A stretch of DNA of 64,000 nt from Methanofollis liminatans DSM 4140. Its GTDB lineage: Archaea > Halobacteriota > Methanomicrobia > Methanomicrobiales > Methanofollaceae. Every line of letters starts with the position of its first letter. Positions within the stretch are counted from its first letter, which is position 1. Of the stretch, positions 1,634-60,454 are shown one piece after another. The translations under genes were made by a program, and so were the position numbers. The notes under the pieces were generated by a model. It worked only from the letters and a program-made list of their open reading frames with translations, did not search any database and had not been told where the DNA came from. Where the stretch lies: NCBI RefSeq assembly GCF_000275865.1, contig NZ_CM001555.1, positions 1,137,706-1,201,705 on the forward strand, read 5' to 3'.

Positions 1634-1763
1634 AGGTTCGCATCCTGTTTTGAGAGTCGGCGTGGCAGCATAAGTTTTTTGGGGAGTGCGTTGCGCCGCC
1701 TCCATTTCTCCCCTTCGCCGGGGATGGGCTAATGAGAGAGTACCGTCATACAGGTGGAGGAGC
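1634..1763. promoter_or_regulatory. Divergent intergenic region between the AI-2E gene and the agmatine-degrading fusion
   Basis: This 130-base spacer must hold both promoters. On the minus strand an A-rich AAAAAACTTATG stretch (about 1668-1680) is the best TATA-like candidate for the AI-2E gene. GGTGGAGG at 1753-1760 is a strong Shine-Dalgarno sequence that fixes the plus-strand start. No operator palindrome was recognised. Confidence 0.4.
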
Positions 1764-3695
1764 ATGGATGATCGCAGCGTAACAATCGGGCTTGTCCAGA
1801 CAGCGGTCTCTGGCGATCCCGCACTGAACCTGGAGCGCACGCTTGCAGCGGCAGAGACGGCGGCAGCGCGGGGCGCCCGTATCATCTGCCTGCAGGAACT
1901 TTTCCGTTCCCCCTACTTCCCGCAGGCGGAGGGCGCCGATGCGGGCGGCTACGCCGAGACGATCCCGGGCGAGTCGACCGAGGCCTTTGCGGCCTTTGCT
2001 CGCCGGCACCATGTCGTCGTCATTGTCCCGGTCTTCGAGAGGGGGGAGGACGGGCGGTTCTCCAACGCCGCTGCCGTCATCAACTCAGACGGTTCTCTGA
2101 TGCCGCCGTACCGGAAGGTGCACGTCCCGTACGACCCGCTCTTCTACGAGAAGGAGTATTTCTACCCGGGCGACTGCTACCGGGTCTATGAGACAACCTA
2201 CGGCAGGATCGGCGTGCTGATCTGCTACGACCAGTGGTTCCCCGAAGCGGCGCGATCGCTCGCCCTCGACGGTGCCGAGATCATCTTTTACCCGACGGCC
2301 ATCGGGCGGATCCGCGGCATGGAAGACGCCGTCGAAGGGGACTGGCGCGAGGCCTGGGAGACCGTCCAGCGGGGGCATGCGATCGCCAACGGCGTCCATG
2401 TCGCCGCGGTGAACCGCGTCGGAGAGGAGGGCGAGATCCTCTTCTGGGGGAGTTCGTTCGTCTGCGACTCCTTCGGCACGGTCGTCGCCCGCGCCGGCGA
2501 GGGGGAGGAGGTGCTCGTCGCCGCAATCGATCTCTCGAAGAACCGGGAGGTCAGGGAGGGGTGGGGGTTCCTGCGCAACCGGCGACCCGAGACCTACGAC
2601 GCCCTCGTCCGTCCGACGGCAGCGTTTTCGGGGGGTTACCGCTGCCCTGCAGAACGCCGCCCTGACACCCCGAAGAAATGCGGCTATCATATGCCCGCCG
2701 AGTGGGAACCGCACGATGCGATCTGGCTCTCGTGGCCCCATGACCCTGACACCTTCCCTGATCTCGAGGCGGTGGAGGCGTCCTATCTCCGCATCGTGGC
2801 GGCGCTCCACCATGACGAGATCGTCAACCTGCTCGTCACCGACGAACCGATGCAGGGGCGGGTGACCGACCTCTTCACCGCCGCCGGCCTTGACCTCGCC
2901 CGGATCCGCTTCCACCGGGCCGACTATGCCGATGTCTGGTTCAGGGATTACGGCCCGGTATTCGTGGTGGACCGCGCCGGCGGCGCCCTTGCGATGGTCG
3001 ACTGGATCTTCAACGCCTGGGGGGGGAAGTACGAGGAACTGATGCGCGACTCGGGCATCCCCTCGACCCTGAACCACTGGCTGCACCTCCCCATCTTCTC
3101 CCCGGGGATCGTCCTGGAGGGGGGATCGATCGAGGTCAACGGGAAGGGGACGGTGATCACCACCCGCCAGTGCCTCCTGAACCCGAACCGGAACCCCGAC
3201 CTCTCGCAGGAGGAGATCGAGGGGCACCTGAAGGAGTACCTCGGGGCCTCCCACGTGATCTGGCTGAACCAGGGGATCGCCGGCGACGACACCGACGGCC
3301 ATATCGATGATGTCGCCAGATTCGTCGACGCGCGGACGGTCGTCTGCGTCGTCGAGGATGATACGGAGGACGAGAACTACGAGATCCTGCAGGAGAACCT
3401 GGAGATCCTGCGGTGCTCGACCGACCAGGACGGCAACCCCTTAACGATCGTCCAGGTTCCGATGCCCGACCGCGTCGGCGACGAAGAGGTGCGTCTGCCC
3501 GCGAGCTATACGAATTTCTACATCGGGAACAGGACGGTGCTCGTCCCGGTCTTCGGGGATGAGAATGACGAGCGGGCCCTCGCCATCCTGAAGGGGCTCT
3601 TCCCGGATCGAGACGTCGTCGGGATCGACTGCCGGGCGATGGTCTTTGGCCTGGGCACCATCCACTGCATCAGCCAGCAGCAGCCTTCGGTGTGA
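1764..3695 (+). CDS. Fused N-carbamoylputrescine amidase - agmatine deiminase
   Basis: One 643-residue protein carries two consecutive enzymes of agmatine-to-putrescine conversion in reverse order. Residues 1 to about 290 are a nitrilase-fold amidase (AguB type) with the expected Glu45 (CLQELF), Lys118 (PPYRKVH) and Cys154 (LICYDQWFP). It would hydrolyse N-carbamoylputrescine to putrescine, CO2 and ammonia. Residues from about 300 are a porphyromonas-type agmatine deiminase (AguA): MPAEWEPHDAIWLSWPHD at the front, RDYGPVF, GDDTDGHID, and the catalytic Cys635 in TIHCISQQQ near the end. Each half has near full family length, so this is a true fusion and not a remnant. The start is set by GGTGGAGG four bases upstream. 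Intermediate channelling is inference. Confidence 0.9.
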   Translation: MDDRSVTIGLVQTAVSGDPALNLERTLAAAETAAARGARIICLQELFRSPYFPQAEGADAGGYAETIPGESTEAFAAFARRHHVVVIVPVFERGEDGRFSNAAAVINSDGSLMPPYRKVHVPYDPLFYEKEYFYPGDCYRVYETTYGRIGVLICYDQWFPEAARSLALDGAEIIFYPTAIGRIRGMEDAVEGDWREAWETVQRGHAIANGVHVAAVNRVGEEGEILFWGSSFVCDSFGTVVARAGEGEEVLVAAIDLSKNREVREGWGFLRNRRPETYDALVRPTAAFSGGYRCPAERRPDTPKKCGYHMPAEWEPHDAIWLSWPHDPDTFPDLEAVEASYLRIVAALHHDEIVNLLVTDEPMQGRVTDLFTAAGLDLARIRFHRADYADVWFRDYGPVFVVDRAGGALAMVDWIFNAWGGKYEELMRDSGIPSTLNHWLHLPIFSPGIVLEGGSIEVNGKGTVITTRQCLLNPNRNPDLSQEEIEGHLKEYLGASHVIWLNQGIAGDDTDGHIDDVARFVDARTVVCVVEDDTEDENYEILQENLEILRCSTDQDGNPLTIVQVPMPDRVGDEEVRLPASYTNFYIGNRTVLVPVFGDENDERALAILKGLFPDRDVVGIDCRAMVFGLGTIHCISQQQPSV

Positions 3696-43601: not shown

Positions 43602-44450
43602 TTGTATCAGGTTGAGGAGGCAACGCAGCTCGCTGACAGGGTATTTCAGATGTGGATCACCGCGCCGCAGGTGGCGCGGCACGCGCGGGCAGGGCAGTTC
43701 CTGGTGATCAGGGCCCACGAGAACGGCGAGCGCATACCGCTCACCATCTCGGCGGTGCGCGGGGACGCTGTGCGCGTCATCTTCATGTCCGTCGGAAAGA
43801 CGACCGAGTTCCTTTCCACGATGAAAAAGGGCGATGCCCTCTCTGACGTCGCCGGTCCCCTCGGAAAGCCGAGCGAGATCGAAAAATACGGCACCGTCGT
43901 CGTCATCGGCGGCGGCGTGGGGATTGCGAGCACCCCGATCATCGCCCGCGAGGCAAAAGAGGCCGGGAACCATGTCATCGGGATCATCGGGGCGCGAAAC
44001 AAAGACCTGCTCATCCTGGAGGACGAGATGGCGGCGGTCTGCGACGAACTCTTTGTCACGACCGACGACGGGAGCAAGGGCATCCACGGTTTTGCCGCTT
44101 CGGTGCTCGAGCAGCTCCTCAAGGAGCGGAAAATTGACTGCGTCTGGATCGTCGGCCCGGCGATCATGATGAAGGTCACCTCGAACGTGACCAGGCCGTA
44201 CGGGGTGCTGACCTTTGTCTCGCTCAATCCGATCATGGTCGACGGCACCGGCATGTGCGGATCGTGCCGGGTCACCGTCGGCGGCGAGACGAAGTTCGCC
44301 TGTGTCGATGGCCCTGAGTTCGACGCCCACAAGGTCGATTTCGACAGCCTGATGCAGAGGCAGCGGATGTACGTCGACGAGGAGAAGGCCTCGGTCGAGC
44401 ACTACCACCACCACGGAGGGTGCGGCTGCTGCGGGGGCGAGCACCGATGA
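43602..44450 (+). CDS. NfnA/SudB-like FAD/NAD(P)-binding, [2Fe-2S] oxidoreductase subunit
   Basis: 282 residues. The ferredoxin-reductase-like core binds FAD (RIPLTISAV) and pyridine nucleotide (VVVIGGGVGIAST). A C-terminal [2Fe-2S] loop reads GTGMCGSCRVTVGGETKFAC. With the next gene it resembles the two subunits of NADH-dependent ferredoxin:NADP oxidoreductase (NfnAB) or sulfide dehydrogenase (SudAB). It ends in HYHHHGGCGCCGGEHR, a metal-binding-looking tail not typical of the family. The start is TTG, supported by GGAGTGG about six bases upstream and the family start YQV-E. Couples by ATGA to the large subunit. Confidence 0.85.
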   Translation: MYQVEEATQLADRVFQMWITAPQVARHARAGQFLVIRAHENGERIPLTISAVRGDAVRVIFMSVGKTTEFLSTMKKGDALSDVAGPLGKPSEIEKYGTVVVIGGGVGIASTPIIAREAKEAGNHVIGIIGARNKDLLILEDEMAAVCDELFVTTDDGSKGIHGFAASVLEQLLKERKIDCVWIVGPAIMMKVTSNVTRPYGVLTFVSLNPIMVDGTGMCGSCRVTVGGETKFACVDGPEFDAHKVDFDSLMQRQRMYVDEEKASVEHYHHHGGCGCCGGEHR

Positions 44451-45790
44451 CGGGGTCGCCTGCCAGGAAAGAGGTGCGGGACTTCAACGAGGTCAATAAG
44501 GGTCTTTCGGCGGAGAACGCCGTTCTCGAAGCCCTCAGGTGCATGGAATGCGTCCGGCCAACCTGCGTTAAGGGGTGCCCGGTCGGGATCGACATCCCGG
44601 CGTTCATCCAGCAGATTGCAAACCAGGATTTCGAGGGTGCGGCGGCGACGATCAAGCGGGACAACATGCTCCCAGCGATCTGCGGCCGCGTCTGCCCGCA
44701 GGAGAGCCAGTGCGAGGGCTCGTGCGTTCTTGCGAAGAAGGAGAAGCCGGTCGCCATCGGCGCCCTCGAGCGCTTTGTCGCCGACTATGAGCGCGAACAC
44801 GGCATGACACTGCCCGAGGTGGCGCCGCCGTCAGGAAAGCGGGTGGCGGTCGTGGGCTCCGGCCCGGCGGGTCTGACCGCCGCCGCCGAACTGGCGCGCC
44901 TTGGCCATGCGGTGACGGTCTTTGAGTCCCTCCACGAGGCCGGAGGGGTGCTGACCTACGGCATCCCGAACTTCCGGCTGCCAAAAGAGATCGTGCGGGC
45001 GGAGATCGAGCAGGTGAAGCGCCTCGGCGTCGAGATCAGGCTCAACCACCTGGTGGGCCGAAGCCTCTCCACCGATGAACTCCTCTCGTACGACGCCGTC
45101 TTCCTGGGCACCGGCGCGGGTCTCCCCTACTTCATGGGGATCGAGGGCGAGAACCTGAACGGCGTGTACTCGGCGAACGAGTTTCTCACCCGCGTGAACC
45201 TGATGCATGCCGACCGTTTCCCCGAGTTCGATACCCCGGTGAAGCGCGGCTGCAACGTGGTCGTCGTGGGCGGCGGCAACGTGGCGATGGACGCCGCACG
45301 CGTGGCCCGCCGCCTCGGCGGGAAGGTGACCCTGGTCTACCGCCGGCGTGAGGAGGACCTGCCGGCCCGCGCCGTCGAGGTCGAGAACGCCCTGGCCGAG
45401 GGCGTGCAGTTTGTCTGCTGCGCCAACCCGGTGCGGGTGATCGGCGAGAAGACGGTGCAGGCGGTCGAGTGCGTGCAGATGTCGATGTGCGACCTCGACG
45501 AGAGCGGGAGGCCGAAACCCTCATGTGTTGAGGGGAGCAATTTCCTGATCGAGGCGGACGTCTTTATCGAGGCGATCGGGCAGGGCCCCAACCCCCTGCT
45601 GGTCTCGATGCTCCCTGACCTGAAGCGGGAGCGGCGGGGCAACCTGGTCGTGGACGCCGACGGGCAGACGGCCCTTGGCCGCGTCTATGCGGGCGGGGAC
45701 GTCGCCACCGGTGCGGCCACGGTCATCTGGGCGATGGGCTCTGCGAAGAAGGCGGCGGCCGCCATTGACAGGATGCTGAGGGAAGAATGA
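44447..45790 (+). CDS. NfnB/GltD-like NADPH-dependent oxidoreductase subunit (glutamate synthase small-chain family)
   Basis: 447 residues. N-terminal [4Fe-4S] helical domain: CMECVRPTCVKGCPVGIDIP and CGRVCPQESQCEGSC hold two clusters. FAD site VAVVGSGPAGLTAAAELAR lies around residue 137, and the NADPH site NVVVVGGGNVAMDAARVARR around 285. It is annotated variously as GltA/GltD, NfnB or SudA. No glutamate synthase large subunit is nearby, and the coupling to an NfnA-type partner favours an electron-transfer or bifurcating complex between ferredoxin and pyridine nucleotides. Overlaps both neighbours by ATGA. Confidence 0.88.
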   Translation: MTGSPARKEVRDFNEVNKGLSAENAVLEALRCMECVRPTCVKGCPVGIDIPAFIQQIANQDFEGAAATIKRDNMLPAICGRVCPQESQCEGSCVLAKKEKPVAIGALERFVADYEREHGMTLPEVAPPSGKRVAVVGSGPAGLTAAAELARLGHAVTVFESLHEAGGVLTYGIPNFRLPKEIVRAEIEQVKRLGVEIRLNHLVGRSLSTDELLSYDAVFLGTGAGLPYFMGIEGENLNGVYSANEFLTRVNLMHADRFPEFDTPVKRGCNVVVVGGGNVAMDAARVARRLGGKVTLVYRRREEDLPARAVEVENALAEGVQFVCCANPVRVIGEKTVQAVECVQMSMCDLDESGRPKPSCVEGSNFLIEADVFIEAIGQGPNPLLVSMLPDLKRERRGNLVVDADGQTALGRVYAGGDVATGAATVIWAMGSAKKAAAAIDRMLREE

Positions 45791-50877: not shown

Positions 50878-51777
50878 ATGGTAATGGCCGGGAACGTCCG
50901 CTCCCTCCTCCGCACCGATATCGAGACACCGGACGGCGTCTACATCCTCACCCTCAGGGCCGAGGATCTCTCTTCTCTCTATCCCGGCATGGTCCGCTAT
51001 CTGCTCCACCTGACGAAGGGGGACGAGGTCGTCGGCACCTTCCTGACCAACACCTACGAGTACTCACCCACTGTTCCGCTCGATGCGGAGACGGCGGCGC
51101 TCCAGAAGTCGGCGGCATGGGAACGCGAACTGAGGGAGAACCGGGAGCGGTTCCTCTCTGTCGTCGGAAAAAGAATGCCGAGGCGCCCCTTCACCCTCCA
51201 ACCCGCAGACGTTGTGGTGGTCCAGGGGAGCCCGCGGGCCGACGGCAATTGCAGCATCATGGCCGGATGGGCAGTGGAGGCGGCAGAAGCGGCCGGAAAA
51301 ACGGCGAGGGTGGTGTACCCGGACGACCTCAGCATCCACCCCTGCATCGGGTGCTACCGCTGCTACAACACCGGCACCTGCACCTTCGACGACGAAATGG
51401 GCGAACTCATCCATCTCATCGTCCACGCCTCCCTCCTGGTCGTCTGCTCCCCGGTCTACACCAATACGGTGCCCGGCGGTCTGAAGGTCGTCATCGACCG
51501 CTGCCAGGCGCTTCATGCGGCGCGGACGCTCGGCGCCAGGAGGGCGATGCCCGCGGGCCTGCTCCTCGCGGTCTGCGGGAGAGAGGGGCTGTCCAACTTC
51601 TCCTGCCTCACTTCGGTCATGGAGGCGTTCATGGGCAATCTCGGGATCAGGCCGGCCGGCGAGGTGCTGGCGGACGGCATCGATCGGGTGAGGGACGTGA
51701 GGCTGGTCGAGGGGCTGGAGGAGCGGGTGAAAGAACGCGTCCGCTCATGTCTCTTATCTTCTCCGCTCCGCCCTTGA
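50878..51777 (+). CDS. Iron-sulfur flavoprotein (Isf-type) with an N-terminal extension
   Basis: 299 residues. From about residue 110 the flavodoxin-like fold shows VVVVQGSPRADGNCS (FMN phosphate loop). A compact cysteine set follows at Cys156, Cys159, Cys162 and Cys168 (HPCIGCYRCYNTGTC), the [4Fe-4S] pattern of Methanosarcina Isf, and later CSPVYTNTVPGGLKVVIDR. Such proteins shuttle electrons from ferredoxin, sometimes to O2 or peroxide. The first 110 residues (TPDGVYILTLRAEDL, LLHLTKGDEVVGTFLTNTY) are not part of the usual family and were not recognised. Followed by a Usp gene. Confidence 0.85.
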   Translation: MVMAGNVRSLLRTDIETPDGVYILTLRAEDLSSLYPGMVRYLLHLTKGDEVVGTFLTNTYEYSPTVPLDAETAALQKSAAWERELRENRERFLSVVGKRMPRRPFTLQPADVVVVQGSPRADGNCSIMAGWAVEAAEAAGKTARVVYPDDLSIHPCIGCYRCYNTGTCTFDDEMGELIHLIVHASLLVVCSPVYTNTVPGGLKVVIDRCQALHAARTLGARRAMPAGLLLAVCGREGLSNFSCLTSVMEAFMGNLGIRPAGEVLADGIDRVRDVRLVEGLEERVKERVRSCLLSSPLRP

Positions 51778-52414: not shown

Positions 52415-53518
52415 TCATTCGAGAAAGTCCGAGAGCGCCGCGAGCGCCGCCGGCATGTCCCGGCGCGCAAAACCGATCCTGAAATGGCTGTCGCCGTAGC
52501 CGTAGGTCTCTGACGGCAGGAGGAGCACGCCCGCTCCCGTCACTGCCTCATCGCAGAAGGCGGCGGCGCTCCCCCGGAGGAGCCGTGGGAATGCGATCGG
52601 CCCGGCATTCGGCCGGACCCAGGAGAACCGGTCGGCGTGCCGGGCGAAGAACCGGTCGAGGAGGGGGAGGTTCTCCCTGACGATCCCGAGGTTCCGTTCG
52701 ACGATCTCTTCCCGGTGCCTGAGGGCGAGGGTGGAGAGGAACTCGCTCGGGGCGCTGCAGCAGATGGTGGTGTAGTCCTTGAGCGCCGCCATCCTGGAGA
52801 GCATGCCTGTGTCCTGTGCGGCGGTCCAGCCGATCCGCAGGCCGGCGAGCCCGAAGGACTTCGACATGACGCCGATCGAGATGCCCTTCTCGTAGATATC
52901 GGCCATCGGGGGGAGGCGGTCTTTCGGGTCGTGTTCGAGGAAGCGGTAGACCTCGTCGGAGAAGACGTGGATGTCGCGCTCTTCGGCGATCTCTTTCACC
53001 GCAAAAAACTCCTCTTTCATCATCTGCGCTCCGGTCGGGTTGTGCGGGCTGTTGATGACGATCGCCTTCGTCGAGGGCGTGACGAGGTCCTTGAGCCGCT
53101 CGATGTCGGGGCGCCACCCGTCTGCGTCAGAGAGCGTCCATGCCGCGACCCGGCAGCCGATGCCCCGCGCCACCTCGTGGAGCGACTGGTAGGCCGGGCA
53201 CTGGACGACGATCTCGTCGCCAGGTGAGAGCATGGCGTTCATGTAGAGGAAGATCGCCTCTTCGGCCCCGGCCGAGACGAGGACGTTCTCCGGGCCGACC
53301 CCGGCGTACAGCCCTGCAATTCCGGCACGCAGATCCGGGTCGCCCTGTGTCTCGGTGTAGCCGAGGTTTCTGGCCATGAACCTCTCCTTCGCCCCCTCTT
53401 CGAGCGCCAGCAGGTCGGCGATGCTGACCGATTCGCAGTCCGAGGTGCAGAGCAGGCGGGGGGCGGAAAATTCGTGGCGTGAGAGGTAGCGTTCGAGTTT
53501 GAATGCCGGTAGACGCAT
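52415..53518 (-). CDS. PLP-dependent class I/II aminotransferase
   Basis: 367 residues of the aspartate-aminotransferase fold I family. The aromatic/Gly stretch ETQGDPDLRAGIAGLYAGV, INSPHNPTGAQM (substrate Asn), VFSDEVYRFLE (Asp), and the PLP lysine in MSKSFGLAGLRIGW are all present, with the substrate arginine in HFRIGFARRD. Exact amino acid unknown. It is divergent from the class III aminotransferase gene and shares its 100-base promoter region, suggesting a joint amino-acid role. Confidence 0.88.
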   Translation of the reverse strand: MRLPAFKLERYLSRHEFSAPRLLCTSDCESVSIADLLALEEGAKERFMARNLGYTETQGDPDLRAGIAGLYAGVGPENVLVSAGAEEAIFLYMNAMLSPGDEIVVQCPAYQSLHEVARGIGCRVAAWTLSDADGWRPDIERLKDLVTPSTKAIVINSPHNPTGAQMMKEEFFAVKEIAEERDIHVFSDEVYRFLEHDPKDRLPPMADIYEKGISIGVMSKSFGLAGLRIGWTAAQDTGMLSRMAALKDYTTICCSAPSEFLSTLALRHREEIVERNLGIVRENLPLLDRFFARHADRFSWVRPNAGPIAFPRLLRGSAAAFCDEAVTGAGVLLLPSETYGYGDSHFRIGFARRDMPAALAALSDFLE

Positions 53519-53574
53519 ATTTTAAATTCTGATCTCTGCGGTTATGAACGATCTCTTCTCCTGCTGCCGCCCCC

Positions 53575-53601
53575 GATAAATATATGAAGTATTTTTATAT
53601 A
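53575..53601 (+). promoter_or_regulatory. TATA promoter of the aminotransferase-P5C-proline genes
   Basis: ATAAATATATG and TATTTTTATATATC occupy an AT-rich block 25-45 bases before the ATG at 53623. The ATG lacks a clear Shine-Dalgarno, so a leaderless or very short leader is likely. Its complement may also serve the divergent aminotransferase. Confidence 0.55.
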
Positions 53602-53622
53602 TCTCGGGCAGGCATTCACATC

Positions 53623-54936
53623 ATGGACCCTCTGATCCAGGTCACGCCGCCGGGCCCGCGTGCCCGTGCCGTCCTTGAGCGCGACGCGGGGGTGGTTTCG
53701 CAGTCGATGGTGCGGGCCTACCCGCTGGTCATCGAGCGTGCGGAGGGCACGAACCTCTGGGACGTCGACGGGAACCGTTACCTCGACTTCACCGCCGGGA
53801 TCTCGGTGATGAACGTGGGCTGGAACCACCCGGCGGTCGTCGGGGCGGTGCGGGAGCAGGTCGGCCGCCTCTCCCATGCCGCCTTTCTGGATTTCTGCGC
53901 CGAGGTGCCGGTGCGGTTTGCCGAGGAACTGGTCGGGATGCTTCCCGCCGGGCTCGACCGCGTCTATTTCTCAAACTCCGGGGCCGAGACGGTGGAGGCC
54001 GCCCTCAAACTCGCCCGCCACCACACGAAGCGGAAGTATTTCATCTCTTTTTATGGCGGCTTCCACGGCCGGACCTACGGGGCGCTCTCATTGACGGCGG
54101 CGAAGGTGATCCAGAGAAAGCATTTCGGTCCGTTTCTCCCGGTGGTGCATGCGCCCTATCCCGACCCTTACCGTCCGCTCTGCCCGTGTTCGGGCGACGA
54201 GTGCGCCCTCGATGCGATCAGGTACATTAAAGAGGAGATCTTCAGGACCGAGGTCTCCCCTGAGGAGGTGGCGGCGATCGTCGTCGAACCGGTGCAGGGG
54301 GAGGGCGGCTACATCGTCCCGCCCCGCCTCTTCCTGCGAGCCCTGCGCGACCTCTGCGACGAGCACGGGATCCTCCTGGTCGCCGACGAGGTGCAGAGCG
54401 GGTGCTACCGAACCGGGCGGTTTCTCGCCTCCGAGCATTCGGGCGTGGTGCCCGACATCGTCTGCCTTGCCAAGGCGCTCGGCGGGGGGCTTCCGCTCGG
54501 CGTCACCGTCGCTTCAGACGAGGTGATGACCTGGCCGCCGGGTTCTCACGCGAGCACCTTCGGCGGCAACTGCGCCGCCTGCGCCGCAGGTCTGGCCGTG
54601 CTCTCGGTGATGCGCGAGAAAGGGTTTGGTGAGCGGGTGACCGAGACCGGGGAGCACCTGATCGCCGGGCTGCAGGGGTTGATGGAGCGGCACCGGATCA
54701 TCGGCGACGTGCGGGGGATCGGGCTGATGGCGGCGATCGAGCTGGTTCGGGACAGGGGGACGAAAGAACCGGCCCGAGAGGAGAGGAACGAGATCCTCAA
54801 ACGGGCGTTCGAGGCCGGGCTCACCCTCCTGCCCGCAGGCGAGTCGGCGATCCGGTTCAGTCCGCCGCTGACGATCCGGCCGGCCGAGATCGATGCCGGC
54901 CTTGCGATCCTCGACCGGGCGATGGAGGGCTACTGA
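53623..54936 (+). CDS. Class III aminotransferase (ornithine/4-aminobutyrate type)
   Basis: 437-residue PLP enzyme. Motifs are YLDFTAGISVMNVGWNHPAV, FSNSGAETVEAALKLAR, GGFHGRTYGALSLT, VEPVQGEGGY, LLVADEVQSGCYRTG and the PLP lysine in CLAKALGGGLPLGV. Family members transaminate omega-amino groups of GABA, ornithine or acetylornithine; here the neighbours (glutamate-semialdehyde dehydrogenase and proline dehydrogenase) point to ornithine or GABA feeding glutamate. The upstream in-frame start was rejected because it lies within the TATA region. Seventeen bases to the next gene. Confidence 0.88.
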   Translation: MDPLIQVTPPGPRARAVLERDAGVVSQSMVRAYPLVIERAEGTNLWDVDGNRYLDFTAGISVMNVGWNHPAVVGAVREQVGRLSHAAFLDFCAEVPVRFAEELVGMLPAGLDRVYFSNSGAETVEAALKLARHHTKRKYFISFYGGFHGRTYGALSLTAAKVIQRKHFGPFLPVVHAPYPDPYRPLCPCSGDECALDAIRYIKEEIFRTEVSPEEVAAIVVEPVQGEGGYIVPPRLFLRALRDLCDEHGILLVADEVQSGCYRTGRFLASEHSGVVPDIVCLAKALGGGLPLGVTVASDEVMTWPPGSHASTFGGNCAACAAGLAVLSVMREKGFGERVTETGEHLIAGLQGLMERHRIIGDVRGIGLMAAIELVRDRGTKEPAREERNEILKRAFEAGLTLLPAGESAIRFSPPLTIRPAEIDAGLAILDRAMEGY

Positions 54937-54952
54937 AAGGGAGGTTGGAAAG

Positions 54953-56515
54953 ATGAAACAGAAGATCACGTACGTGAGCCTTGAGTCTGATGCGAGCATG
55001 CACGTCTCGTACGAGGCGGCGCTATCCGGGTTTGAGCGGAACTTCGGCCACCGGTATCCGCTCTATATCGGGGGGAAGGGCTTTGAGCCGGCCGGGGATT
55101 TCGCGGTGCGCTCCCCGGTCGACCGGGACATTATCATCGGGTATTTTCAGGAGGCCGGAGAGAACGAGGCGCACGCGGCGATCCGCGTGGCGAAGGAGGC
55201 GTTTCCCGCCTGGAGCGGCACCGACCCGGCCGAGCGGATCGGGGCGCTGCGAAAGGCGGCAGATCTCCTTGAGCGGCAGGTCTTCGATCTTGCCGCCCTG
55301 ATCACGATCGAGGCCGGGAAGACGAGGAGCGAAGCGGTGGCCGAGGTCGGGGAGGCGGTGGAGATGATCCGCTACTACGCCGCGGTCTACGAGAAGAGCG
55401 ATCACTTCACGGTGAGGATGCAGCCCGAGGCGCCGGGGGGGGTGAGTCTCAGCACAATGCGCCCGCACGGCGTCTGGGTGGTGATCTCCCCCTTCAACTT
55501 CCCGCTCGCCCTCGCCGCGGGGATGGCCTCAGCCGCTCTCCTCACCGGGAACACGGTGGTGATGAAACCAGCGAGCGCCACCCCCCTGACCGGGATCCGC
55601 CTCTACGAGGCCTTCATCCAGGGGGGCGTGCCTGCCGGTGCGGTGAACCTCATCACCGGCCCGGGCGCCCCCTTCGGCGAGGCGGTGACCTCGAGCCCTG
55701 ACGTCGACGGGATCGCCTTCACCGGATCGCGGGAGGTGGGGATGTGGCTCCAGCGCGCCTTCGTGGTGAAGCAGCCCTACCCGAAACCGTTTATTGCCGA
55801 GATGGGGAGCAAGAACCCCTGCATCGTGACCGATAAGGCCGACCTCGATAAGGCGGTCGAGGGAGTGGTGCGGTCGGCGTTCGGCTACGGCGGGCAGAAG
55901 TGCAGCGCCACCTCGCGTGTCTACGTCCACCGTGACGTGGCCGAGGCGTATGCGAGGGCGCTTATTGCGCGCACCGAGGAGTTGAAGGTGGGCGATCCCC
56001 GCGAGCGGGACGTCTCTCTCGGCCCCCTGATCTCTGAGGCGGCGCAAAAGACCTATGAGGCGGCGGTGGCGCTCGCCCTGAAGGACGGCGGGCGGGTGAT
56101 CACCGGCGGCGGGGTCTGCTCTGAGGGCAGCCGTGCGAGGGGATATTATGTGCGCCCGACGATCGTCGCCGGGCTCGCGCAGGACCATCCCCTGATGCGG
56201 GACGAACTCTTTGTGCCGCTCCTCTGCCTCAGGACCTTCGCCTCGCTCCCCGAGGCGGTCGGCCTCGCGAACGAGACTGAGTTCGGGCTGACGGCCGGGA
56301 TCTTCTCCGAGGATGAGGGCGAGGTCGATTACTTCTTCGATCACATCCGTTTCGGGGTCTGCTATGCAAACCGGCAGGGCGGGGCGACGACCGGGGCATG
56401 GCCGGGCAGGCAGTCTTTCGGCGGGTGGAAGGCGAGCGGCTCGACGGGCCGGGGGGCCGGCGGGCCGTATTACCTGTTTTCGTATCTCAGGGAGCAGGCG
56501 CAGACCAGGCTGTGA
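54953..56515 (+). CDS. L-glutamate gamma-semialdehyde (P5C) dehydrogenase
   Basis: 520-residue NAD(P)-dependent aldehyde dehydrogenase of the RocA/PutA class that oxidises glutamate semialdehyde, formed from proline or ornithine, to glutamate. WVVISPFNFPLALAAGMASA, VVMKPASATPLTG, AFTGSREVGMWL, the glutamate in FIAEMGSKNPCIV and the catalytic cysteine in GYGGQKCSATSRVYV are clear. The C-terminus SFGGWKASGSTGRGAGG is typical. GGGAGGT lies 8-9 bases before the ATG. Between the aminotransferase and the proline dehydrogenase gene. Confidence 0.93.
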   Translation: MKQKITYVSLESDASMHVSYEAALSGFERNFGHRYPLYIGGKGFEPAGDFAVRSPVDRDIIIGYFQEAGENEAHAAIRVAKEAFPAWSGTDPAERIGALRKAADLLERQVFDLAALITIEAGKTRSEAVAEVGEAVEMIRYYAAVYEKSDHFTVRMQPEAPGGVSLSTMRPHGVWVVISPFNFPLALAAGMASAALLTGNTVVMKPASATPLTGIRLYEAFIQGGVPAGAVNLITGPGAPFGEAVTSSPDVDGIAFTGSREVGMWLQRAFVVKQPYPKPFIAEMGSKNPCIVTDKADLDKAVEGVVRSAFGYGGQKCSATSRVYVHRDVAEAYARALIARTEELKVGDPRERDVSLGPLISEAAQKTYEAAVALALKDGGRVITGGGVCSEGSRARGYYVRPTIVAGLAQDHPLMRDELFVPLLCLRTFASLPEAVGLANETEFGLTAGIFSEDEGEVDYFFDHIRFGVCYANRQGGATTGAWPGRQSFGGWKASGSTGRGAGGPYYLFSYLREQAQTRL

Positions 56516-56558
56516 CCCCCCTCGTCACCTTTTTCCATGCCGGCGCCGATCCCGGTGC

Positions 56559-57359
56559 ATGACGCCCCCGGAGAGATGGGCGCTCCCCGACCTGGAGGCC
56601 GCAGCGGCGCGGTGCAGGGAGCGCAATGCCGCCGGGATCAGGTGCATCCTCTCCCCGCTCGGGGAGTACGCCGCGGACGAGGCCGCGGCCGACCGGGCCG
56701 GGGAGGCGTACCGTGCGGCGATGGGGGCGATCGCCGCGGAGGGCCTCGATGCCTCGGTCGCCGTGAAACTCTCGGCCCTCGGTGCAGCCGCCGGCCTGGC
56801 CCATTGGGGCGACCGCCTCGGGCTGATCGTGGACGAGGGGCGACGGCGGCATGTCGGCATCGAGATCGACATGGAAGGCGCCGCCATGGTGGGCCCGGCG
56901 ATCGCCGCGGCAGAAGAGGCGGCGGCCTCAGGCGCCCCGTCCGGGCTTGCGGTGCAGGCCTACCTGAACCGTTCGGCGGCCGATCTGCCGCGCATCCTGC
57001 GGGCAGGGATCACCCCCCGCCTGGTGAAGGGCGCCTATATCGGGGACACCGGCGATTTTTCGGATATTCAGCGGCGGTTTCTCGACCTCGCAGCCGCCGC
57101 TCTGGAGTCGGGGCGGCCCTTCTCGGTAGGCACCCATGACCCGGACCTTATCGGCTGGATCGTCGGGACCGCAGACCGCCGCCTGATCGAATGTGGTTTC
57201 CTGATGGGGCTTGCAGACGACACGAAGGTCCGCATGGCCCGGGAGGGGTGGCGGGTGGCGGAGTACATCCCCTTCGGTGAGGAGCGGGCGGCATATGAGG
57301 GGCGGCGGTGGAGGTACCTCAGGTCGATCGAGGCTCTCGGGCGGTCTCCTGTGCTGTAG
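56559..57359 (+). CDS. Proline dehydrogenase-like protein (PRODH domain)
   Basis: 266 residues, about the size of a minimal FAD-dependent proline dehydrogenase barrel. Motifs include VAVKLSALG, GIEIDMEGAAMVGP, AYLNRSAADLP, RLVKGAYIGD, VGTHDPDLI, LADDTKVRM and YIPFGEERAAYEGRRWRYL, matching the PRODH end Y(I/V)P(F/Y)G...RR. It converts proline to P5C for the dehydrogenase encoded 43 bases upstream. The start codon is uncertain: the ATG has only a weak ribosome-binding sequence and a GTG or TTG nearby is possible. Confidence 0.82.
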   Translation: MTPPERWALPDLEAAAARCRERNAAGIRCILSPLGEYAADEAAADRAGEAYRAAMGAIAAEGLDASVAVKLSALGAAAGLAHWGDRLGLIVDEGRRRHVGIEIDMEGAAMVGPAIAAAEEAAASGAPSGLAVQAYLNRSAADLPRILRAGITPRLVKGAYIGDTGDFSDIQRRFLDLAAAALESGRPFSVGTHDPDLIGWIVGTADRRLIECGFLMGLADDTKVRMAREGWRVAEYIPFGEERAAYEGRRWRYLRSIEALGRSPVL

Positions 57360-58562: not shown

Positions 58563-58626
58563 AATAAGTACGTAATTAGGAATGTTGGATGGGTCCAGCG
58601 TTCACTGATTACGAAGGGTGAAATTT

Positions 58627-59241
58627 ATGCGAAAATTCGGAAAGAGTGATGAGGCATTCACCGGCCTCGAGGCTGCGATCGTGTTGATCGCATTCGTCGT
58701 GGTGGCCGCTGTGTTCTCATATGTGATGCTCGGCGCCGGGTTCTTCACCTCCCAGAAGAGCCAGGAGGTTGTGCACACCAGCGTCGATCAGGCGAGTTCG
58801 AGCCTGGAAGTGCGGGGAGATGTCTATGGCATGGACAATGGCAATATGACCAAAGCAAAGGATAATGTAGAGGCGAATCAGAAGATCGATACACTGCAGT
58901 TCAATGTTGCCCTGACCTCCGGCGGCTCTCCTGTCGATATCAACAAGACTGTGCTGACCTATATGACCGCAGACGAGGTTGTGGTACTTAACCGCACTCT
59001 TGCTGATAAAACACATGCAACTCTTGGCATTGGCAACTGGACCGTCGCTGATAAGGTAGGCACTGCCGATACTGATTTCCTGATTGAACGGGGAGAGCAG
59101 TTCGTGATCTGGGTAAAGGTACCTACGGAACTTGAGGCCGATGGCAAGTTTAGTCTTGAGGTGAAACCTTCTACGGGTGCAGCTCTTGGAATAAAGAGGA
59201 CCGCACCGGCGCAGATCGATGTATCGAACCTGCTATATTGA
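58627..59241 (+). CDS. flaB1: Archaellin (flagellin) 1
   Basis: Major filament protein precursor, 204 residues. It carries a class III signal peptide cut by FlaK after DEAFTG, leaving LEAAIVLIAFVVVAAVF, the coiled hydrophobic N-terminus that packs the filament core. ATG was chosen over a GTG three codons earlier because AAGGGTG lies six bases upstream. Residues beyond about 55 diverge from the two following archaellins; the ending AALGIKRTAPAQIDVSNLLY is shared. Its 5' portion is almost identical in DNA to the next two genes. Its middle is richer in Lys/Asn than other genes here. Confidence 0.94.
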   Translation: MRKFGKSDEAFTGLEAAIVLIAFVVVAAVFSYVMLGAGFFTSQKSQEVVHTSVDQASSSLEVRGDVYGMDNGNMTKAKDNVEANQKIDTLQFNVALTSGGSPVDINKTVLTYMTADEVVVLNRTLADKTHATLGIGNWTVADKVGTADTDFLIERGEQFVIWVKVPTELEADGKFSLEVKPSTGAALGIKRTAPAQIDVSNLLY

Positions 59242-59252
59242 GGTGATCAAGA

Positions 59253-59864
59253 ATGAAGTTCATGAAACATGAAGAGGCATTCACCGGCCTCGAGGCTGCG
59301 ATCGTGTTGATCGCATTCGTCGTGGTGGCCGCTGTGTTCTCGTACGTGATGCTCGGCGCCGGGTTCTTCACCTCCCAGAAGAGCCAGGAGGTTGTGCACA
59401 CCAGTGTTGACCAAGCCAGTTCAAGCGTTGAAATCCGAGGAGATGTTTTTGGGCGGGATGCTGGTTCAACTCCCAGTGAAATCGAGATTGTTGAGTTTGC
59501 GGTGGCGTTGACTGCGGGAGGGACTGCACTTGATATGAACAGTTCCGTTCTCACGTTCCAGAAGAGTGACGTGGCAGTGACAACATTGACTCATGCTTAT
59601 GCCAATGATTACGTTTCGTCAACATCTGTCCTGAACGAGACAACTGGCGATAACAAGTGGTGGATCTATCAGAAGGTCAATGGAGACAACGACAGGTTGA
59701 TCGAAGGCAGTGAACTGTTCATCATTCGGGCTCAGCTCGGTGCTACGAACGAGGTCGCTGCAAATGAGCAGTTCAACCTTGAAATCCGCCCTGCAACAGG
59801 TGCAGCCCTTGGACTGAAGAGAACTGCCCCAGCACAGATCGATGCTGTGAATGTCTTATACTGA
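59253..59864 (+). CDS. flaB2: Archaellin (flagellin) 2
   Basis: 203-residue archaellin precursor with a FlaK site after HEEAFTG and the same hydrophobic N-terminal helix as its neighbours. GAGGTGATCAAGA precedes the ATG. It is identical in DNA to archaellin 1 over about 130 bases of the 5' part, with only a couple of differences, then variable in the surface domain and conserved at the end (LGLKRTAPAQIDAVNVLY). Eleven bases separate it from each neighbour. Multiple archaellins often form different filament sections. Confidence 0.94.
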   Translation: MKFMKHEEAFTGLEAAIVLIAFVVVAAVFSYVMLGAGFFTSQKSQEVVHTSVDQASSSVEIRGDVFGRDAGSTPSEIEIVEFAVALTAGGTALDMNSSVLTFQKSDVAVTTLTHAYANDYVSSTSVLNETTGDNKWWIYQKVNGDNDRLIEGSELFIIRAQLGATNEVAANEQFNLEIRPATGAALGLKRTAPAQIDAVNVLY

Positions 59865-59875
59865 GGTGATCAAGA

Positions 59876-60454
59876 ATGAAGTTCATGAAACATGAAGAGG
59901 CATTCACCGGCCTTGAGGCTGCGATCGTCCTGATCGCATTCGTCGTCGTTGCGGCGGTGTTCTCGTACGTGATGCTCGGCGCCGGGTTCTTCACCTCCCA
60001 GAAGAGCCAGGAGGTTGTGCACACCAGTGTTGACCAGGCCAGTTCAAGTCTTGAAATCCATGGCGATGTCTATGGTCTCGATTCCGATGATGGCGACAAT
60101 GTTGATCTTATTGATTTCACCATCACACTGACAGCAGGTGGATCGCCGGTTGATGTGCCGAAAGTGGCTATAACATTCCAGAACAGCACCTATGCTGGTG
60201 TCGTAACCTACGATAAGACTCAAAACGGTTCTGATCCAAATACTGCCAATACCTGGTGTATTTATAAAAAAGTTGATTCAGACGATGATACGCTCCTTGA
60301 GTTCGGGGAACAGTTTGTCATCCGTCTTAAGCCTAAGGGTGAACTGCCTCCCGACGACAAATTCTCTGTCGATATTAAACCACCAGTCGGCGCGGCGCTC
60401 GGTCTGAAGAGAACCATCCCGCCCCAGGTTGACGCGGTGAACCTCCTCTACTAA
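59876..60454 (+). CDS. flaB3: Archaellin (flagellin) 3
   Basis: 192-residue archaellin precursor with the same N-terminus (MKFMKHEEAFTG then LEAAIVLIAF) and same ribosome-binding leader as archaellin 2. Its 5' DNA differs at several synonymous sites from copies 1 and 2 (for example GCGGCGGTGTTC), so it is slightly more diverged. Variable middle, conserved C-terminus (ALGLKRTIPPQVDAVNLLY). A T8 run six bases later may reduce readthrough into the motor genes. Confidence 0.94.
   Translation: MKFMKHEEAFTGLEAAIVLIAFVVVAAVFSYVMLGAGFFTSQKSQEVVHTSVDQASSSLEIHGDVYGLDSDDGDNVDLIDFTITLTAGGSPVDVPKVAITFQNSTYAGVVTYDKTQNGSDPNTANTWCIYKKVDSDDDTLLEFGEQFVIRLKPKGELPPDDKFSVDIKPPVGAALGLKRTIPPQVDAVNLLY

Follow-up and report, generated by a model that had tools for sequence, protein, structure and literature searches.

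A probable ornithine and proline breakdown operon in the methanogen Methanofollis liminatans

Gene content and family assignment

A stretch of 64,000 nucleotides from Methanofollis liminatans DSM 4140 (hereafter the window; contig NZ_CM001555.1, positions 1,137,706 to 1,201,705) was analysed for a cluster of amino acid catabolic genes at window positions 52415-57359. The cluster is confirmed, and all four of its genes lie inside this range (Table 1). Three plus-strand genes are assigned to an ornithine aminotransferase (OAT), a 1-pyrroline-5-carboxylate (P5C) dehydrogenase-like enzyme (P5CDH) and a proline dehydrogenase (PRODH), and a divergent gene to a second aminotransferase.

Table 1. Features of the locus in window coordinates
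Feature	Position	Strand	Basis
Class I aminotransferase-like pyridoxal phosphate (PLP) enzyme (PRK07324/GntC/VioD relatives), neighbour only	52415-53518	-	Profile matches
Divergent intergenic region with AT-rich TATA-like stretch at 53592-53601	53519-53622		Sequence read directly
Ornithine delta/omega-aminotransferase (OAT; class III, PLP)	53623-54936	+	NCBIfam PRK05769, PF00202, nearest solved chain 7vno
P5C/glutamate-semialdehyde dehydrogenase-like enzyme (P5CDH), 520 amino acids	54953-56515	+	NCBIfam models, 3qan, motifs
Short monofunctional proline dehydrogenase (PRODH), 266 amino acids, without N-terminal helices A-C	56559-57359	+	PF01619, residues, model

The OAT open reading frame (ORF) opens at 53584, and its relatives begin at the methionine of MEPLI (MDPLI in the window), which corresponds to the ATG at 53623. 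A Shine-Dalgarno-like GGAGGT (54940-54945) precedes the P5CDH start codon, ATG 54953. The longest PRODH ORF codes for 348 amino acids from 56313 and overlaps the P5CDH gene; homology begins only at its residue 95-99, and the ATG at 56559 gives a 266-residue protein of the length seen in relatives, the 82 extra residues lying outside the family. The divergent spacer measures 104 bp between ATG 53518 (minus strand) and ATG 53623 (plus strand), and its TATA-like stretch, some 22-31 bases ahead of the OAT start, is a putative promoter. Its conservation in other genomes and the purifying selection seen relative to a sister genome show that the cluster is not a chance association. The dN/dS values in that comparison (OAT 0.13, P5CDH 0.10, PRODH 0.36) indicate that the genes are maintained, with PRODH the most relaxed of the three.

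For OAT, the match to PF00202 (399 bits) is accompanied by a score above the cut-off of NCBIfam PRK05769, an acetylornithine aminotransferase family protein model (573.9 versus 552 bits). The nearest solved chain, 7vno, bears only the title of a hypothetical 4-aminobutyrate aminotransferase; we take it to be PH1423, an ornithine delta-aminotransferase, and assume that PH1423 and TK2101 are both members of PRK05769. The motif CLAKALGGG was located, and its lysine presumably binds PLP. P5CDH matches PF00171 at 453 bits, and its top NCBIfam models are both L-glutamate gamma-semialdehyde dehydrogenases (PRK03137, 408.5 bits; TIGR01237, 389.5 bits). Its best solved chain is 3qan, a 1-pyrroline-5-carboxylate dehydrogenase, to which the motifs GQKC and EMGSK align; the cysteine and glutamate of these motifs, to which we ascribe the catalytic roles, are both present.

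For PRODH, the match to PF01619 (63.3 bits, the gathering score being 27) places the protein in the family, and the closest PDB chains are the Thermus and Deinococcus enzymes. In PutA, as described in PMC10651016, the substrate is surrounded by Lys329, Leu513, Tyr540, Tyr552, Arg555 and Arg556. The window counterparts K70, L215, Y236, Y246, R249 and R250 are all present, PutA numbering having been matched by motif order on an alignment made to the Thermus/Deinococcus enzymes. These residues are kept in 51, 51, 50, 51, 51 and 51 of 51 Methanomicrobiales rows and in 62, 62, 60, 61, 61 and 61 of 62 wider rows, two overlapping sets that both count the window row; the same six together with D104, Q133, R154, K157 and Y160 are each found in at least 50 of the 51 and at least 60 of the 62 rows. 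The active site, singled out in the preliminary description as a point where the assignment could fail, is intact in the alignment. Rows L074 and L082 (below 200 residues) were dropped from the Methanomicrobiales alignment, and L146-L152 stand outside the 62-row count; alignment A1 holds 25 of the 51 rows, and alignment A2 excludes L142, L145, L148 and L150-L152 (short), L144 (broken end), L133 and L136.

AlphaFold2 modelled PRODH with a pLDDT of 94.6, and in a Foldseek search with this model the 50 matches listed were all PRODH or PutA. Its match to 4h6r (Foldseek E 8.2e-17; VIA Z 33.6, root-mean-square deviation 1.9 over 255 residues) shows the TIM barrel of PRODH; that on 5m42, a Thermus enzyme solved without helices A-C, gives a Z of 29.0 and offers a solved precedent for a barrel missing these helices. 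The Thermus thermophilus (2g37, 5m42) and Deinococcus radiodurans (4h6r) enzymes share with the methanogen protein the barrel, the substrate and catalytic residues and the organization as a separate chain, whereas the latter has about 266 residues, lacks the N-terminal helices and is 25-28% identical to them. In addition, the Gln of EFQ(F/M)LYG (position 213), present in Thermus/Deinococcus and preceding F/M-L-Y-G, is replaced by Gly, Ala or Ser in all 51 Methanomicrobiales rows and by Gly, Ser, Ala or Asp in all 62 wider rows; of three outliers, L146 and L149 keep Gln and L147 has Gly. The short methanogen-type PRODHs also carry a clade motif, G-L/I-A/S-D-x-T-K. Bifunctional PutA has the same two reactions and the same PRODH fold (Z 27-29) but joins PRODH and P5CDH in one chain, whereas the window has two ORFs plus an aminotransferase in one predicted operon. 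The enzyme names proposed earlier (omega-aminotransferase, P5C dehydrogenase and proline dehydrogenase) agree with both the families and the nearest structures.

Distribution and evolution in Methanomicrobiales

The survey covered 199 genomes of the order Methanomicrobiales. Thresholds were fixed beforehand for P5CDH (E 1e-80), proA (1e-30) and cyclodeaminase (1e-20), whereas those for OAT (369 bits or more, the next genome scoring 235) and arginine deiminase (ArcA; 90 bits or more, the next genome scoring 75) were chosen afterwards from gaps in the scores. PRODH, whose distribution was a point raised in the preliminary description, occurs in 53 of these genomes (32 of the 132 with a completeness of 90% or more), and outside the order the gene was identified in Methanomassiliicoccales, Methanosaeta and Riflebacteria. 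A P5CDH relative is present in 50 genomes, 47 of which also have PRODH (Fisher p=3.4e-35); by genus, 16 have both genes, three have one alone and 19 neither (p=1e-7), the genome lists for these tests having been compiled by hand. The two genes lie within 2 kb of each other in only 21 of the 47 genomes, two of these pairs being convergent, so linkage does not explain their co-occurrence; some of the other genomes are split into many contigs. Of the 37 genomes in which OAT was identified, 35 also have P5CDH, the two genes being within 2 kb in 27, and 32 also have PRODH, at that distance from OAT in 6; none of the 199 genomes has OAT and PRODH without P5CDH.

The commonest pair is OAT-P5CDH, which PRODH joins in the genus of the window: six same-genus loci, the window included, have the order OAT-P5CDH-PRODH. 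The same order recurs in a locus from another family (L044), PRODH being set off there by about 0.5 kb, and the cultured relative Methanogenium marinum (L141) carries a P5CDH-PRODH pair. G021, G045 and G057, genomes of the same genus as the window, showed no PRODH, which implies that loss or patchy inheritance occurs.

The PRODH tree was built from rows collected with patterns from the short methanogen-type family; its bootstrap is rough and did not stabilize, its deep order is not settled and the window row was flagged for its letter make-up. The window protein groups with same-genus rows (99/98), and a 64-row clade (98/97) comprises methanogens, other Thermoplasmatota, Riflebacteria and one deltaproteobacterial metagenome-assembled genome labelled Myxococcota. 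A recent transfer from bacteria, considered earlier, is not borne out, as the window protein lies inside this mainly methanogen clade; an ancient transfer may have occurred. As a separate observation, PRODH often stands beside serine recombinase genes, mainly in Methanomassiliicoccales loci (L135:5272-7896; L098, L119, L144): this ORF family was found in 15 loci, with 27 copies within 3 kb, and the two tested match PF00239/PF07508. In 12 such loci a small hydrophobic protein is encoded near PRODH, and the two examples tested had no Pfam match.

The second aminotransferase (PF00155, 145 bits) was said to share the promoter region of the three genes. A common divergent region of 104 bp does exist, but a partnership does not hold, the gene not being conserved beside the operon: among the six same-genus loci it also occurs in L038 and is absent from L037, L043 and L045, while in L065 the contig ends. 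Among its top-scoring models, all under cut-off, are GntC and capreomycidine synthase, both enzymes of arginine-derived metabolites.

Direction of the pathway and alternative readings

The most plausible explanation, with a probability of about 0.77, is an operon for the breakdown of ornithine and proline to glutamate, as proposed in the preliminary description. It draws on the family placements, the intact active-site residues, the PRODH fold, the operon order and a tight co-inheritance of PRODH, P5CDH and OAT that persists when the genes are unlinked; the substrates and the oxidative direction are inferred. OAT would transfer the delta-amino group of ornithine to 2-oxoglutarate, yielding glutamate and glutamate semialdehyde, the latter in equilibrium with P5C; PRODH with its FAD would oxidize proline to P5C; and P5CDH would convert the semialdehyde to a second glutamate with formation of NAD(P)H. 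The likely use is the recovery of nitrogen or glutamate from arginine, ornithine or peptides.

Proline synthesis probably does not need the cluster, as the archaeal ornithine cyclodeaminase family TIGR00300 is nearly universal (186 of 199 genomes, that of the window included) and proA was identified in only four, that of the window not among them. As regards an anabolic route in the order, named in the preliminary description as a counter-argument, there is no sign that proline synthesis depends on the cluster. The gene proC (P5CR_dimer) was identified in 87 genomes, the window genome among them: in 28 of the 53 with PRODH against 59 of the 146 without it (p=0.08), and in 21 of the 37 with OAT against 66 of the 162 without it (p=0.057). 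As PRODH goes with P5CDH and does not replace proC, the breakdown reading appears well supported, and the module looks catabolic.

Three alternatives have to be weighed against these data. It is conceivable that PRODH runs in reverse as a flavin-dependent P5C reductase, turning P5C from OAT into proline with low-potential electrons from F420H2, H2 or ferredoxin, either for synthesis or as an electron sink; the missing proA would fit, and by arithmetic from the figures given in PMC7642206 and PMC6019823 the potentials favour P5C reduction with F420H2 by roughly 50 kJ/mol. This is nevertheless quite unlikely given the co-inheritance of PRODH with a P5C consumer, the unreplaced proC and the cyclodeaminase family already in place. 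Improbable to much the same degree is a role of OAT chiefly in proline or P5C supply, with P5CDH and PRODH recycling overflow only. The table of PMC9986279 lists PH1423 as an ornithine delta-aminotransferase and TK2101 of Thermococcus kodakarensis as an ornithine aminotransferase, and a paper cited there is titled as showing that TK2101 is required for growth without exogenous proline. The window OAT resembles these Thermococcales enzymes as an archaeal class III aminotransferase and clears the PRK05769 cut-off, and proC is available in its genome; instead of the proline supply reported for TK2101, however, it sits with P5CDH and PRODH, and across the order OAT tracks P5CDH closely and proC weakly, next to a near-universal cyclodeaminase family.

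The enzymes might also act on neighbouring substrates, i.e. lysine/piperideine-carboxylate, hydroxyproline or 5-aminovalerate. PH1423 and TK2101 accept lysine too, according to PMC9986279, and both P5CDH and PRODH are divergent, the latter showing 28% identity to the Thermus enzyme when aligned by fold. This reading is very unlikely, as the proline-contacting residues are kept, the best P5CDH model scores 146 bits above the piperideine-carboxylate model, and the gene neighbourhoods of relatives point to ornithine. In eight of 52 PRODH loci, mostly Methanogenium-like, P5CDH-PRODH is preceded by genes resembling ornithine carbamoyltransferase and arginine deiminase (order read in L040, L047, L049, L051, L059 and L074, and by coordinates in L052 and L053), the gene names of the arginine deiminase pathway being confirmed in L049 (L049:4950-10779). 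Carbamate kinase stands between these genes and P5CDH-PRODH in six of the eight loci and was not seen in L047 and L059 with the ORF selection used. An ATP-yielding arginine route is thus possible in these relatives. The link between arginine deiminase and PRODH is partial, since arginine deiminase (at least 90 bits) occurs in 18 genomes with PRODH and in 19 without it (37 in total; p=0.0012); no genome among the 199 reached the TIGR01078 cut-off. A glutamate dehydrogenase family gene is found near PRODH in four same-genus loci, with the name confirmed in L037.

Several observations weigh against ornithine and proline breakdown. The P5CDH scores fall under the NCBIfam cut-offs of 648 (PRK03137) and 659.65 bits (TIGR01237), and PRODH reaches 81.7 bits with the ProDh_Thermus equivalog, under its cut-off of 500, so that on its profile scores it is a distant PRODH and not a Thermus-type equivalog; it also evolves faster than OAT and P5CDH, as its dN/dS indicates. 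PRODH occurs without P5CDH in six genomes, listed as 80-89% complete, and P5CDH without PRODH in three, and the co-occurrence tests ignore tree structure. Unlike in the relatives whose P5CDH-PRODH genes follow the arginine deiminase pathway, only a weak partial match to arginine deiminase (31.8 bits) and no full gene were found in the window genome. A PF00208 search found no glutamate dehydrogenase there, the sole match being a homoserine dehydrogenase. Finally, no conserved electron-acceptor gene is linked to PRODH in its neighbourhoods, no genome-wide partner search having been made.

Electron acceptor, neighbouring genes and significance

The chemistry of the module is known, and what is unusual is its host and the question of the acceptor. 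Hydrogenotrophic methanogens are usually regarded as living on H2 or formate plus CO2, and neither quinone nor methanophenazine is expected in this host. The electron acceptor of PRODH, noted as not obvious in the preliminary description, is a real gap, as none was found. PMC7642206 gives -123 mV for P5C/proline at pH 7.5, and PMC6019823 gives about -420 mV for H2, -380 mV for F420H2 and -140 mV for CoM-S-S-CoB and states that cytochromes are absent from obligate CO2-reducing methanogens. P5C/proline thus lies far above F420 and NAD, so at standard potentials proline oxidation cannot feed them without energy input, while the CoM-S-S-CoB heterodisulfide is nearly isopotential with it. That a non-quinone acceptor with a potential near -140 mV, such as CoM-S-S-CoB or its reductase, receives the electrons which the short PRODH takes from proline is a speculative and rather unlikely proposal. 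Among the open-licence literature matches listed, no paper on a methanogen PRODH appears by title, which does not show its absence from print, and the main text of PMC2686161 contains no word beginning with "proline".

Two candidate partners were rejected, as neither is conserved with PRODH. An FMN reductase-like gene (window 50878-51777) is found near PRODH in the window and in the sister locus L045, and about 8-10 kb away in L049, L051, L052 and L059; L108 and L127 have weakly related genes close to PRODH, and no copy was found in the remaining loci compared. An aldo/keto reductase with a 4Fe-4S dicluster domain lies near PRODH in eight, mostly Methanogenium-like, loci and is not PRODH-specific, because relatives occur in 115 of the 199 genomes (E 1e-70).

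Other plus-strand genes of the window were noted. A single ORF at 1686-3695 combines N-carbamoylputrescine amidase (TIGR03381, 266 bits; PF00795) with agmatine deiminase (NCBIfam, 295-321 bits; PF04371) in an apparent fused agmatine-to-putrescine enzyme, the NCBIfam cut-offs not being reached. At 43602-45790, a DHODB-type FAD/NAD and Fe-S subunit is paired with a GltA-like NADPH oxidoreductase; both are over an NCBIfam cut-off, and the pair resembles NfnAB/sulfide dehydrogenase. A MazF/PemK-like protein (PF02452; 49162-49557), whose gene is flanked by those for a geranylgeranyl-reductase-like protein and a cytosine permease, recurs in L045. Three tandem archaellin genes at 58618-60454 (PF01917, 121-140 bits) code for proteins almost identical at their N-termini and occupy a stretch with a GC content of about 50% within a region of 62-68% GC.

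If PRODH does deliver its electrons near the heterodisulfide potential, amino acid oxidation would be coupled directly to methanogenesis in cytochrome-free methanogens, and the clade-wide loss of Gln 213, together with the G-L/I-A/S-D-x-T-K motif, would be part of a change of acceptor. The module poses the question of which carrier takes up electrons at about -120 mV in such a cell, and its co-inheritance across roughly one in four of the genomes sampled from the order suggests that amino acid recovery is a normal, patchy trait of these methanogens.

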